The translations under genes and the position numbers were made by a program. Source: Pelotomaculum thermopropionicum SI (lineage in GTDB: Bacteria; Bacillota; Desulfotomaculia; Desulfotomaculales; Pelotomaculaceae). Taken from it: a DNA stretch of 64,000 nucleotides. Shown here piece by piece: positions 9,996-47,820 of the stretch. The notes beneath the pieces were generated by a model. The model had not been told where the DNA came from. It worked only from the letters and a program-made list of their open reading frames with translations, and searched no databases. The stretch is taken from the NCBI GenBank assembly GCA_000010565.1, contig AP009389.1:620001-684000 (forward strand), read 5' to 3'. Position 1 is the first letter of the stretch. Every line of letters starts with the position of its first letter.

Positions 9996-10134
9996 TGTTG
10001 CTCTGATATCATATAATTGAAAGCAGCCGGGGAGGTGATGCCGCGTTGAGACCGCTCAACTTTGCCTCTTAATCTGCCGTTGACAACAGCAGGCAGATAA
10101 AATATAATCTTCCTAAAGGTTACAACCGAATAGT

Positions 10135-10220
10135 CAGCTAGGGGTGCCGCAAGGCTGAGAGAGAGCAATCTCGACCCTCTGAACCTGATCTGGGTAATGC
10201 CAGCGTAGGGAAGCGGAAAA
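10135..10220 (+). promoter_or_regulatory. TPP (THI-box) riboswitch
   Basis: The conserved thiamin-box blocks are all present in order: AGGGGTGCC, GGCTGAGA, ACCCTCTGAACCTGATC, TGGGTAATGCC and GCGTAGGGAAGC. The aptamer lies about 110 bases before thiS and is followed by an intrinsic terminator at 10282-10313. Transcription attenuation by thiamine pyrophosphate of the whole thi operon is the expected mechanism. Confidence 0.97.
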
Positions 10221-10281
10221 GCTGTATCTTGATCCAAACTTGCAAGGCCGTTTTATCTTCTCTTGAAGTCAAGTTTTTTTA

Positions 10282-36307: not shown

Positions 36308-36543
36308 TCGTTCCACTATTGTCGGGGTGGAGAACCTCGGAGCAAGTATAGTGGCAAAGAGAGTCATCGTGCAAAAATAGCCCAACGAATTGTTTATAAA
36401 TATAGTGAGGCGGAGAGGCCTGGAGGGGAAGAACCCCCTTAGGCTTAATCTATCTTTGGTTGACGAAAAAAAATTAATAGCCTGGCAGGAAAATGTTTTT
36501 TAATGTTGAATACATTTTTTCGAAATTTTAGTTATACAATTTA

Positions 36544-36637
36544 TTCTCCGAGCTTGGCATGCCTAAGCAAGGTACGGCAGCCAAGCCGTTAGGGTACGGG
36601 CGGGAAACCCCCGTGCCTCCCGGTGCGGAAAGGAGAA
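36544..36637 (+). promoter_or_regulatory. Moco-type riboswitch, copy A
   Basis: The closing stem TTCTCC/GGAGAA encloses the blocks CCGAGC, GGGAAACCC, GTGCCTCCC and GCGGAAAGGAG that I associate with the molybdenum-cofactor RNA motif. It is the most divergent of three tandem copies and is followed by a terminator-like hairpin. Identity is from memory of the motif and from context; no covariance search was possible. Confidence 0.65.
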
Positions 36638-36653
36638 GGCGGCTGTTTGGAAG

Positions 36654-36697
36654 AAAAGCTTTGTCCTCTTTCTAACCGGGCAAAGCTTTTAGTATTT
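36654..36697 (+). terminator. Terminator-like hairpin after riboswitch copy A
   Basis: A 10-bp stem (AAAAGCTTTG/CAAAGCTTTT) with a 17-base loop is followed by AGTATTT. It is a probable expression platform. Confidence 0.6.
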
Positions 36698-36707
36698 AAT
36701 GAAGATG

Positions 36708-36804
36708 CTCTCCGAGCCACATGACCTAAAGCTGCCAAGCCATGGTTTGCTGGCCGTCAGGGTACATTGGGAAACCGGCGTGCCTTCCATTGCGAAAAGG
36801 AGAG
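36708..36804 (+). promoter_or_regulatory. Moco-type riboswitch, copy B
   Basis: 97 bases closed by CTCTCC/GGAGAG with CCGAGCCACATGACC, GGGAAACCGG, GTGCCTTCC and GCGAAAAGGAG. It differs from copy C by only two substitutions. The 3' strand of the closing stem can also pair with ACTCTC just downstream, a possible switching element. Confidence 0.65.
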
Positions 36805-36825
36805 TTGACTCTCGGTAAAATATTT

Positions 36826-36924
36826 GCCGGGTCAGACTCTATTCGCATGGGTTTGCCCGGCGTTATATTTTTGTAGAAAACCCCCCTTTTCTACTCTGTT
36901 GGTCATCCGACCAACAATTTTTTT
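36826..36924 (+). terminator. Two terminator hairpins after riboswitch copy B
   Basis: The first pairs GCCGGG (36826) with CCCGGC (36856) ahead of GTTATATTTTT. The second is a clean intrinsic terminator, GTTGGTC/GACCAAC with a 4-base loop and seven T (36898-36924). Confidence 0.7.
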
Positions 36925-36934
36925 AATACCGGCG

Positions 36935-37031
36935 CTCTCCGAGCCACATGACCTAAAGCTGCCAAGCCACGGTTTGCTGGCCGTCAGGGTACATTGGGAA
37001 ACCGGTGTGCCTTCCATTGCGAAAAGGAGAG
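36935..37031 (+). promoter_or_regulatory. Moco-type riboswitch, copy C
   Basis: 97 bases, two substitutions away from copy B, with the same CTCTCC/GGAGAG closing stem. It is the copy nearest the hydrogenase gene, about 200 bases upstream of its start, and is followed by a strong hairpin. Confidence 0.65.
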
Positions 37032-37052
37032 TTGGAACCCGGATTGTTTCTT

Positions 37053-37098
37053 TGCCGGGCCAGCTTTGCTTTTCACAGCGCTGGCCCGGCATTTGTGC
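37053..37098 (+). terminator. Terminator-like hairpin after riboswitch copy C
   Basis: A perfect 12-bp GC-rich stem (TGCCGGGCCAGC/GCTGGCCCGGCA) with a 15-base loop and a TTTGTGCTTATTT tail, 140 bases before the hydrogenase gene. Confidence 0.65.
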
Positions 37099-37239: not shown

Positions 37240-38832
37240 ATGGAAGACAGCAAAAGGGGTATTGAGCAAGAAAATATTAACCAAGAAAAGAAAGAAATGA
37301 CCCGCCGTTCTTTTCTAAAAATGATTGCCGGTACGGGATTATTGGTGGGCTTGAGCGGCGCCTTAGCCGGTTGCGTCGAAAAGAGTCCGGAACATGCCGG
37401 CGGCAAGGGCTGGCTGCCGTACCAGTACAATGTCGCGGGCAACCTGCCGGCTCAAGTGCGAGGCCGTGTTCCCATCGATGCGGATAACCCGTCCATTACC
37501 CGTGACGATCAAAAGTGCATATTATGCGGCCAGTGCCTGGAGGTCTGTAAAAACGTTGAAAGTGTCTATGGTTATTACGACCTGCCGGTTGTAGACGAAA
37601 CCATCTGCATCAACTGCGGCCAGTGCTCCATGGCCTGCCCCTCCGGAGCGATCAGCGAGCGCGACGACACGAAAAAGGTTTTTGAAGCACTGGCCGATAA
37701 AGACAAATTCGTGCTGGTTCAGACGGCGCCCGCCACCAGGGTCGCCCTGGGCGAGGAATTCGGTTTGCCACCCGGCACGTGGGTACAGGGTCAGCAGGTA
37801 GCGGCACTGAGGAGACTAGGCTTCAACGCCGTTCTGGATACCAACTTCGCTGCCGACTTGACCATAATGGAAGAAGCCACCGAATTGATTAAAAGGATCA
37901 AAGGCGAGGTAAAGAAACCCCTGCCGCAATTCACTTCATGCTCGCCGGGTTGGATCAAATTCTGCGAGTATTTCTATCCCGAACTCATTCCAAACATCTC
38001 TTCATGCAAGTCACCCCAGCAAATGTTCGGCGCATTAGCCAAGACTTATTACGCCAGGGCGAGAGGCATTGATCCTGAAAATATTGTTTCTGTCTCCGTC
38101 ATGCCGTGTACAGCCAAAAAGTTTGAAGCGCAGCGGCCGGAAATGAACGCCAGCGCGAAATATTGGAAGCGCGGCAATTTGCGTGACGTGGATGTCGTGC
38201 TTACCACCCGGGAACTAGCCCGGATGCTTAAAGAAAAACAAATTGACCTGACCGCCCTCCCTGAAGAGAATTACGATAAGCTTATGGGTGAAGAAACAGG
38301 AGGGGCAGTGATTTTCGGCGCAACCGGGGGAGTTATGGAGGCTGCCGCGCGCACCGCCTACTTCCTTATTACCGGTCAAGAGCCTCCCGCCCTGTTCCTA
38401 AACCTGACGCCCGTGCGCGGCCTCGCCGGGGTTAAGGAAGCGGCGGCGGAAATACCAGGCGTGGGAACGCTTAGGGTAGCCGTCAGCCACGGCATGGCCA
38501 ACGGTCGAAAAATTTTAAACGCCGTACGCGAAGGGAAAGCCCCCTGGCACTTCGTCGAATTCATGACCTGTCCGGGCGGGTGTATCGCCGGCGGCGGTCA
38601 GCCCCGCACAGCCGTCCCGCCCAGCGACACCGTGCGCGAGCAGCGCCTCGCCGCGCTCTACAAAGCCGATGCGTCGCTGTCCAAACGCAAGAGCTACGAA
38701 AATGAAGAGGTAGCGGCTCTTTACAGGGATTTCCTTGGACACCCGATGAGCGAATTGGCGGAAGAACTACTGCACACGGAATATCATTCCCGCGCTGACA
38801 GGCTGAAGCGCATCTTGGCCCAAGCGGTGTAA
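37240..38832 (+). CDS. Tat-exported [FeFe] hydrogenase, catalytic subunit
   Basis: 530 residues from the ATG at 37240, 6 bases after GGGGGAG. The N-terminus has a twin-arginine signal (TRRSFLKMIAGTG, RR at 22-23) ending in LAGC, a lipobox-like site at Cys45, so the enzyme should face the outside of the membrane. Two [4Fe-4S] motifs follow (CILCGQCLEVCKN, CINCGQCSMACPSG). The H-cluster motifs are TSCSPGW (L1, Ser where TSCCPxW has the second Cys), MPCTAKKFE (L2) and MTCPGGCIAGGGQP (L3). The C-terminus contains the small-subunit-like domain. It oxidises or makes H2. Three riboswitches precede it and an Fe-S subunit gene follows. Confidence 0.93.
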   Translation: MEDSKRGIEQENINQEKKEMTRRSFLKMIAGTGLLVGLSGALAGCVEKSPEHAGGKGWLPYQYNVAGNLPAQVRGRVPIDADNPSITRDDQKCILCGQCLEVCKNVESVYGYYDLPVVDETICINCGQCSMACPSGAISERDDTKKVFEALADKDKFVLVQTAPATRVALGEEFGLPPGTWVQGQQVAALRRLGFNAVLDTNFAADLTIMEEATELIKRIKGEVKKPLPQFTSCSPGWIKFCEYFYPELIPNISSCKSPQQMFGALAKTYYARARGIDPENIVSVSVMPCTAKKFEAQRPEMNASAKYWKRGNLRDVDVVLTTRELARMLKEKQIDLTALPEENYDKLMGEETGGAVIFGATGGVMEAAARTAYFLITGQEPPALFLNLTPVRGLAGVKEAAAEIPGVGTLRVAVSHGMANGRKILNAVREGKAPWHFVEFMTCPGGCIAGGGQPRTAVPPSDTVREQRLAALYKADASLSKRKSYENEEVAALYRDFLGHPMSELAEELLHTEYHSRADRLKRILAQAV

Positions 38833-38897: not shown

Positions 38898-39713
38898 GTG
38901 GCCAGTACGAAGGGAGTGCTCGTCGATATTACCAGGTGTATTGGCTGTGAAAGCTGCGTTGTTGCCTGCCGCTTGTATAACGGCCTGGAACCCGGTCAAA
39001 AAAACAGGGGCAAAACGAAGCAGAACGGGAACACTGAACTGGCCCCTGATAAGTGGACAGCTGTGCAGGGCTACCGTGTCGATAAAGACGGAAATAAGGT
39101 CAGGCGTTTTGTAAAAAAACAATGCTTACACTGCCTCGAGCCGGCCTGCGCTTCTGCCTGCTTTGCCAGGGCTCTGCAAAAAACGCCGGAAGGGCCGGTG
39201 GTTTATAATGAGAAACTGTGCGTGGGCTGCCGCTACTGTATGATTGCCTGCCCTTTCGGGATATTGAGGTTCGAGTGGGATAAGCCGTTTCCAAGGGTGC
39301 TCAAGTGCCAGATGTGCCTGGCGCGGGTAGCCGACAATCAGATGCCCGCATGCGCCAGCGTATGTCCTACGGGAGCAGTCACTTTCGGCGAGAGGGATAA
39401 AATAGTCGAAGAAGCAAAAAAGCGCCAAGCTTCCAACCCAAATCTTTATGTCAGCCAGATATACGGGCTGAAAGAAGCGGGAGGCACGTCATGGCTGTAC
39501 CTTTCAGACGTTGCCTTCGACAAGCTCGGATTTCGGACCGATGTTCCCGAAAAGCCCATTCCGGAATATACCTGGCAGGTGCTCAGATGGACCCCCCATA
39601 TTTTTATCGGGTGGGGCGCCTTGCTGACCGGCATGTATTTGTATACCAAAAGACGGGCGGCGGTGCATGCGGAAGAAGAAATGTACGCTCCTGTTGATGT
39701 CGACGAGAAATAG
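38898..39713 (+). CDS. Four-cluster ferredoxin subunit (HybA/FdhB-like) with C-terminal membrane anchor
   Basis: 271 residues with a GTG start behind AAAGGGTG. Four Cys groups bind [4Fe-4S] clusters: CIGCESCVVACRLYNG, CLHCLEPACASACFA, CVGCRYCMIACPFG and CQMC...CASVCPTGA. A membrane helix near residue 235 (HIFIGWGALLTGMYLY) anchors it, as in FdhB/HybA subunits of periplasmic formate dehydrogenases and hydrogenases. It should pass electrons between the hydrogenase and a membrane subunit. No Tat signal is visible, so it may be exported with the hydrogenase or act inside. Confidence 0.9.
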   Translation: MASTKGVLVDITRCIGCESCVVACRLYNGLEPGQKNRGKTKQNGNTELAPDKWTAVQGYRVDKDGNKVRRFVKKQCLHCLEPACASACFARALQKTPEGPVVYNEKLCVGCRYCMIACPFGILRFEWDKPFPRVLKCQMCLARVADNQMPACASVCPTGAVTFGERDKIVEEAKKRQASNPNLYVSQIYGLKEAGGTSWLYLSDVAFDKLGFRTDVPEKPIPEYTWQVLRWTPHIFIGWGALLTGMYLYTKRRAAVHAEEEMYAPVDVDEK

Positions 39714-39715
39714 GC

Positions 39716-39985
39716 ATGGGCGTCCTCACCGCTTCCTTGTTGGTGGTTGCAGGCGTTATTTTCAACCGTATGAACGTAGTATTTACAGGCATGGCCAAAA
39801 GCGCCGGCGGATATTATTTCCCCACCGTTTGGGAGTTCTTGATTACCATCGGTATGTGGAGCGCGTTGATCCTCATCTACTGCTTCATTGCCGAAAACTT
39901 CCCCATCCTGCCTAAAGAGGAACGTAAAGCAACTTATGCATACAGCTCAGGAAAAAGAGCCGATTTCATAACTGCAGACCCTTGA
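39716..39985 (+). pseudogene. C-terminal fragment of a NrfD/HybB-like membrane subunit
   Basis: An ATG two bases after the upstream stop opens 89 codons. They match only the last helices of NrfD/HybB polysulfide-reductase-type subunits: VIFNRMNVVFTGM, then YYFPTVWEFLITIGMW and a final helix ending AENFPILPKEE. The family normally has 300-400 residues and eight or more helices, so about three quarters is missing. It may be a deletion remnant, or a retained mini-subunit working with the anchor of the preceding protein. Confidence 0.7.
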
Positions 39986-47483: not shown

Positions 47484-47707
47484 AGGCGGTGCTTATTCCG
47501 CCGCGGGCAGCAGAGGATGATTAAAAGCGCTCATGCGGGGGCAGGGGCGGTGAAAAGGCAGCTGGACATAAAGCCGTACATAGGACCAGGACCGTATTCT
47601 TTTCACGGATGCAAGGAGTTTTTTGCAGCATAATTAGTTCAAAAAAGCCGGAGGAAAAGTTGCAGGTATTTTTTTGTTTGTGAAGAATTAGTATTTTGAA
47701 AAAATTT
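47484..47707. other. Intergenic stretch after modC without a recognisable gene
   Basis: About 220 bases between modC and riboswitch copy D. No convincing ORF or hairpin terminator is seen. The promoter for the riboswitch transcript should lie in the AT-rich part near 47640-47705. Confidence 0.4.
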
Positions 47708-47806
47708 ATCTCCGAGCCTGTTTAACCTTCACCGGCGGCGGTGGTGGTTTGCAGGCCGATAAGGTGTAAGGGGAAACCCTTATGCCCCCCAGTGCGGAAA
47801 GGAGAT
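47708..47806 (+). promoter_or_regulatory. Moco-type riboswitch, copy D
   Basis: The closing stem ATCTCC/GGAGAT encloses CCGAGCC, an internal GGCGGCGGTGG hairpin region, GGGGAAACCC, ATGCCCCCC and GCGGAAAGGAG. These are the same blocks as copies A-C, 11 kb away. Its position between modABC and a regulator of a molybdenum-enzyme cluster is the strongest support for Moco as the ligand. Confidence 0.7.
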
Positions 47807-47820
47807 GAGAAATGCCAGCT

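Follow-up and report, generated by a model that had tools for sequence, protein, structure and literature searches.

In the genome of Pelotomaculum thermopropionicum SI, a stretch of 64,000 nucleotides (the window) contains three copies of a structured RNA, here called A, B and C, that lie in series in front of an [FeFe] hydrogenase gene; the question raised by this locus is why RNAs of the Moco/Tuco riboswitch class should precede a gene whose product requires neither molybdenum nor tungsten. The use of H2 or formate as electron carrier in syntrophic bacteria is a long-standing question and, if the synthesis of a hydrogenase is tied to the cofactor supply of formate dehydrogenase, trace-metal status would directly control the H2/formate choice. 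Covariance models and RNA folding make it rather probable that A, B and C are three complete serial OFF riboswitches of this class, devoid of the P3 stem, which would gate an exported [FeFe] hydrogenase serving as an electron outlet free of Mo and W.

The gene downstream of the array (37240-38832, forward strand, with an ATG start preceded by GGGGGAG) encodes an [FeFe] hydrogenase, as the first-pass annotation had recognized: the product matches the group A family model TIGR02512 (489.8 bits, cut-off 405.95) and Fe_hyd_lg_C (317.8 bits), and its translation carries a Tat-like RRSFLK motif, by which the enzyme is taken to be exported. Its nearest named hydrogenase relatives are from Pelotomaculum. 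The following genes on the same strand encode a HybA/HmcB-like iron-sulphur subunit (38898-39713; NF045715 281.3 bits, below the cut-off of 420) and an 89-aa C-terminal remnant of a HybB-like membrane subunit (39716-39985), which aligns only to residues 308-381 of a 396-aa P. propionicicum protein with 82% identity; longer HybB matches (370-396 residues) are present in 9 of the 12 relatives compared. This truncation, which obscures the electron partner of the [FeFe] hydrogenase, counts against the reading of it as an enzyme made when the cofactor is short. A membrane-bound Fe-H2ase I has been described in P. thermopropionicum in the part of PMC6046458 used here, and we infer that it corresponds to the 37240-38832 enzyme.

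The identity of the RNAs was assessed with the Rfam covariance model RF01055, whose gathering score is 36 bits, on the whole genome (3,025,375 bases, single contig). All the array copies are on the forward strand and score well above this value, A (36534-36652) with 60.3 bits, B (36698-36818) with 69.8 bits and C (36925-37045) with 66.7 bits, so that the earlier description of three copies of one structured RNA holds. The count of 2 differences between B and C was reproduced exactly on the alignment (2 mismatches in 97 core positions, 95/97 identical), C being a near copy of B, and A is indeed divergent, with 66% identity to either B or C in a 100-column alignment. The P4 stem is capped by a GAAA-type tetraloop (GGAAAC) in A, B, C and in 29/29 aligned aptamers, and the first P2 pair covaries across them (GC 21, AU 6, UA 2, n=29; columns 19 and 60 of alignment A2).

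The subtype needs a correction with respect to the first-pass annotation, in which the RNAs were called Moco-type: the RF01055 class is right, but the P3 positions are gapped in A, B and C. The same stem is absent in 28 of the 29 aligned aptamers, nine of which come from the P. thermopropionicum genome (the copy at 190735 being left out and one copy linked to an AOR gene being viewed separately). In the sections of Regulski 2008 (PMC2408646) drawn on here, RNAs without P3 are proposed to sense the tungsten cofactor (Tuco/Wco), and the absence of P3 tracks tungsten use almost perfectly. By this rule the three array RNAs belong to the proposed tungsten-cofactor type rather than to the Moco type and, on the strength of their sequence, they are proposed to be Moco/Tuco riboswitches in that form. 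Tuco/Wco RNAs are expected to neighbour genes for the metabolism of tungsten or molybdopterin, an expectation that is not strict; the neighbour of the array is a hydrogenase operon.

Ten RF01055 places, A, B and C included, are found in the P. thermopropionicum genome. The fourth aptamer of the window (47698-47820, forward strand, 53.7 bits), 11 kb away from the array, had been assigned to a regulator of a Mo enzyme, in agreement with what is found there: it exceeds the gathering score like the other three, and it precedes a sigma-54 response regulator gene followed by a gene for a molybdopterin-dependent aldehyde oxidoreductase (NF045668, 1670.7 bits). The remaining copies, in genome coordinates, are located before an exported [NiFe] hydrogenase operon (1790414), before TupA-like genes (593047) and TupB/C-like genes (2370211), both assigned by matches below the curated cut-offs, in an fdh operon whose fdhA is split by a TGA (2751211), and before two hypothetical genes (186028 and 190735). 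The window also holds a TPP riboswitch (76 bits) at 10130-10228.

As to the ligand, it is possible, even if somewhat unlikely, that the array responds to Moco or to either cofactor, the P3 rule not being predictive of specificity here. In favour of this, a [NiFe] leader of P. terephthalicicum (L123:733-862) contains a P3 stem, unlike those of its relatives before the same genes, and there is a P3-less copy in the vicinity of a gene for a molybdopterin aldehyde oxidoreductase; moreover, in the sections of Regulski 2008 (PMC2408646) at hand, the specificity of P3-less RNAs was deduced from gene correlation, and direct cofactor binding could not be demonstrated for the class. That same correlation is nearly perfect, however, and the P. 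thermopropionicum genome contains ten AOR-type genes and, behind RNAs of this kind, genes for TupA/TupB-like transporters (matches under the curated cut-offs), which argues for the tungsten cofactor.

Terminator-like hairpins are found behind each copy, as had been noticed in the first pass, all of them on the forward strand. The growth temperature of the host is 55 C, and this value was used for folding beside 37 C. The hairpin of A (36654-36690) has a free energy of -15.8 kcal/mol at 37 C and -10.2 at 55 C and is followed by the tail AGUAUUUAAUGA, a weak U tract; that of C (37053-37091) is much more stable (-29.2 and -21.7 kcal/mol, respectively) with the tail UUUGUGCUUAUUU, and the U tracts behind both are poor. 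B is followed by three hairpins: the first (36826-36861; -17.8 kcal/mol at 37 C for the stretch 36827-36863) has the tail UAUAUUUUUGUA, the second (36873-36894) is weak (-3.0 kcal/mol for the folded stretch) and the third (36897-36916), with seven T, reaches -11.6 kcal/mol at 37 C and -8.1 at 55 C. The latter is the sole match of a simple terminator scan, in which shuffled sequences do equally well (1 match against a mean of 1.5), so that the scan by itself proves nothing.

More information comes from the structures that compete with these hairpins in constrained folds. In A, the aptamer 3' side (CCCGGU..GGAAAGGAG) is predicted to pair with the loop and the 3' arm of the terminator, forming an antiterminator at 36619-36680; the corresponding predicted elements are at 36791-36847 in B, by pairing of UGCGAA / AGAGUU with GACUCU / UUCGCA, and at 37018-37077 in C, by pairing of GUUGG-AA-CCCGG with CCGGGCCAGC. 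At 55 C the fold with P1 and terminator and the fold with the antiterminator have similar energies of -42.6 and -43.3 kcal/mol in A, -38.4 and -34.7 in B, and -50.9 and -47.1 in C, while in transcripts ending just short of the complete 3' arm of the terminator the antiterminator is ahead by up to 9.2, 2.8 and 5.7 kcal/mol, respectively; in B, however, the shortest of the transcripts folded favours P1 (-30.2 against -26.5 kcal/mol). When the downstream part was shuffled 60 times and the shuffles reaching the observed maximal advantage of the antiterminator over P1 were counted, only 1/60, 0/60 and 1/60 did so for A, B and C. The evidence from a simpler duplex test is weaker, the observed value being reached by 17/100, 6/100 and 5/100 shuffles, with 1/100 for the [NiFe] unit of P. 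thermopropionicum. Other copies of this genome vary in the fold test (SLH-linked 0/60, response regulator 3/60, and, with weak results, [NiFe] 8/60, tupA 9/60 and tupBC 14/60), as do the [FeFe] unit (4/60) and the second [NiFe] copy (2/60) of P. propionicicum and the second [NiFe] copy of the genome G096 (11/60).

In all three array copies the antiterminator and the P1/terminator fold are mutually exclusive by computation, as in transcription-OFF switches, and the antiterminator consumes the P5/P1 3' side of the aptamer; for this reason A, B and C all look like OFF switches in the modelled folds. A separate terminator and antiterminator is predicted for each aptamer, the arrangement of pseudo-cooperative tandems, so that the earlier picture of three units in series, every one followed by a terminator, before a hydrogenase independent of Mo and W is retained.

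The RNA is rare at [FeFe] loci, which speaks against the reading of a hydrogenase made when the cofactor is short. Among 65 such loci of the class scoring at least 619 bits in 113 genomes, that of P. thermopropionicum included, the RNA is upstream in 5 (the own locus, L023, L059, L058 and L020); in L058 it lies 1.1 kb upstream with two ORFs in between, and in L020 two partial matches are seen only with the model R1. Some loci end close to the gene, as L047, and absence there is uninformative. Among the best 80 of 471 relatives, taken as named loci of which many are the same places, three have the RNA upstream of the gene or operon (L151, L150 with a partial copy, and L166). The idea that this control of the [FeFe] gene is ancient and conserved was rejected on the basis of the 5/65 count. 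No copy of the RNA was found at the [FeFe] orthologues of P. terephthalicicum and further relatives, which are 85-89% identical. In P. propionicicum MGP a single copy precedes the [FeFe] gene (L128/L151), and in Pelotomaculum sp. UBA5255 (L020:1-560) a scaffold gap of N lies between 3' halves, at least two in number and nearly identical, that are followed by C-like terminators. In Pelotomaculum sp. DTU098 (L022) two C-like terminators appear to be kept and the aptamers to have decayed, as judged from copies recognized by BLAST to the terminator of C and by eye (the model gives only 8.9 bits, E 0.7). Outside the family, in Peptococcaceae bacterium SCADC1_2_3, the RNA is found before a gene run in which [NiFe] is followed by [FeFe].

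The third hairpin after B bears on whether the copies work in series. Given its seven T and the fact that no antiterminator is visible for it, this hairpin should always block C and the gene unless it is leaky and, if it always works, few transcripts begun before A get as far as C. The array could then be a by-product of local duplication, consisting of recent copies in which A and B are isolated by the hairpin and only C or leakage counts, a reading that is considered unlikely, although the 95/97 identity of B and C, the lack of a competing fold for 36897-36916 and the decay or loss of the array in close relatives all speak for it. On the other side, A differs by 34% from B and C and nevertheless retains an intact aptamer and antiterminator, UBA5255 likewise retains two copies or more, and a promoter search between B and C gave no convincing site (1 sigma-70-like candidate against 1.2 expected by chance). 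In the part of PMC6046458 used here, RNA-seq shows low transcripts, moderately down in coculture, for the P. thermopropionicum hydrogenases other than Fe-H2ase III; this agrees with the OFF reading and would also fit a constantly working hairpin, and is a test of neither.

The opposite design is present in the same genome. An eleventh copy at 2711591-2711701 (L234:4092-4202), which scores 54.5 bits with the own model R1 and 40.3 bits with RF01055 when searched by itself under permissive settings, being absent from the standard RF01055 genome listing, precedes an AOR-family gene (2709820-2711544; PF01314 255.8 bits; NF007354 120.4 bits, below cut-off). This copy is divergent in sequence, lacks P3 and has a GCAA loop on P4; the 3' strand of its P1 (GGAAG) is at the same time the 5' arm of the terminator GGAAGAGG-auuugu-CCUCUUCC-UUUUUU, and this sharing, together with the six U, indicates an ON design. 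Thus, the gene of an aldehyde:ferredoxin oxidoreductase, a tungsten-type enzyme, is predicted to have an ON-type relative of the array RNAs; that A, B and C are themselves ON switches, by which the cofactor would raise hydrogenase expression, is very improbable in spite of this precedent, since their terminators start well past P1 and the P1 3' strand is part of the antiterminator and not of the terminator. With OFF-like units preceding hydrogenases and an ON-type unit preceding the gene of a tungsten-type oxidoreductase, this one genome offers a natural test set for the ligand of P3-less RNAs.

In the reading of A, B and C as serial OFF switches, at low cofactor the aptamer 3' side would pair into the terminator, the antiterminators would form, and the polymerase would clear three gates so that the hydrogenase is made; in contrast, binding of the cofactor would close P1, allow the terminator to form and halt transcription. 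Each single gate would be able to stop the polymerase and, since any one unit is sufficient, full expression would need A, B and C all free of ligand, with a sharper response, in line with the steep response suggested in the first-pass annotation and already in print for a triple Tuco array. The hydrogenase would in this way be an electron outlet without Mo or W, produced when the enzymes with Mo/W cofactors cannot be filled. The copies before the [NiFe] hydrogenase and the tungstate-transporter-like genes and the ON-type AOR copy fit with this, and the [FeFe] hydrogenase is probably made when the cofactor is short. The proposal of the first-pass annotation that hydrogenase expression depends on cofactor status is therefore kept in its link and in the modelled direction, repression by the ligand, with the proposed tungsten-type cofactor in the place of Moco.

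In 25 genomes of the family, 11 group-1-like [NiFe] loci were sampled, namely ten whose N-terminal piece scores 115 bits or more and a truncated one in G091, and at 9 of them RF01055 matches just upstream on the same strand; in G091 the RNA precedes a [NiFe] locus without a small-subunit ORF, and no RF01055 match was found upstream of the second [NiFe] loci of G096 and G097. Among the family RF01055 matches listed, pairs with a c-di-GMP-I aptamer were also observed in P. propionicicum MGP: before the [NiFe] hydrogenase (L121:733-1146, G095:C187), a Moco-class aptamer is followed 10 nt on by c-di-GMP-I (62.7 bits), a terminator-like hairpin and a second Moco-class aptamer, and a further Moco then c-di-GMP-I pair follows fdhA, close to the end of a contig (L235:467-754, G095:C186). 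Table 2 of PMC9481103, in the form viewed, contains no pair of Moco/Wco and c-di-GMP.

Formate dehydrogenase genes complicate the suggestion that H2 replaces formate as electron sink. Repression goes in the direction that this would need, in silico, but the units before the fdh genes of G098 are OFF-like (0/60 and 10/60 shuffles), which is evidence against a simple toggle and weakens the idea of opposite fdh and hydrogenase switches; the RNA inside the P. thermopropionicum fdh operon shows no such switch in the fold test (28/60 shuffles reach the value), and the accessibility of its SD sequence points to no clear direction. In at least 11 family loci the RNA lies 0-30 nt before a formate-dehydrogenase-like start, most of these being identified by eye from the translation, and from this distance control is probably translational there. 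A Moco-class RNA within the fdh operon, 6-9 nt before an fdhA-like start, recurs in the family (L013:7212-7333; L087, L088, L090, L100).

A wider scheme can be put forward tentatively, in which the tungsten-cofactor riboswitches of Pelotomaculum would constitute an RNA-only selector of electron outlets: in cofactor-rich cells the [FeFe] hydrogenase (three serial OFF units), the [NiFe] hydrogenase (one) and tungstate uptake would be shut and the ON unit would open the tungsten-enzyme gene, cofactor-poor cells would do the reverse, and in P. propionicicum the c-di-GMP-I aptamer between two Moco-class aptamers would add a second signal.

Part of this has been published: the class of the aptamer, arrays of three Tuco RNAs (2008) and Wco RNAs placed in tandem before hydrogenases (2022). 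In the literature searched, with partial coverage, no study of the A-B-C locus was found, nor anything on point for Mo/W deprivation and hydrogenase transcription, nor the switch direction, an antiterminator for each copy, the conservation at [NiFe] loci, the ON-type unit of the AOR gene or the Moco/c-di-GMP/Moco leader of P. propionicicum. The tandem Wco riboswitches before hydrogenases occupy one line of "Architectures and complex functions of tandem riboswitches" (2022, PMC9481103) which, unlike the present account, does not give species, direction, structure or conservation in the portion consulted; the A-B-C locus may be among those cases. The Moco riboswitch of Escherichia coli moaA (RF01055) shares the aptamer class and has a ligand that represses expression (PMC2408646, in part), but it contains P3, works through the ribosome-binding site and regulates the synthesis of the cofactor. 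Serial riboswitches of a single class that act pseudo-cooperatively, such as the triple c-di-GMP-I switches cited in the part of PMC9481103 used, have several complete switches in one leader, as A-B-C, and differ in ligand and genes. Among the closest known systems is the triple Tuco-type array of Syntrophomonas wolfei, for which a more digital response was proposed (Regulski 2008, PMC2408646, in the sections used): both consist of three P3-lacking aptamers in series, the first two being followed by terminators; the S. wolfei array fronts an operon for molybdopterin synthesis and molybdate/tungstate transport, whereas A, B and C front a hydrogenase and have an antiterminator modelled for each copy.
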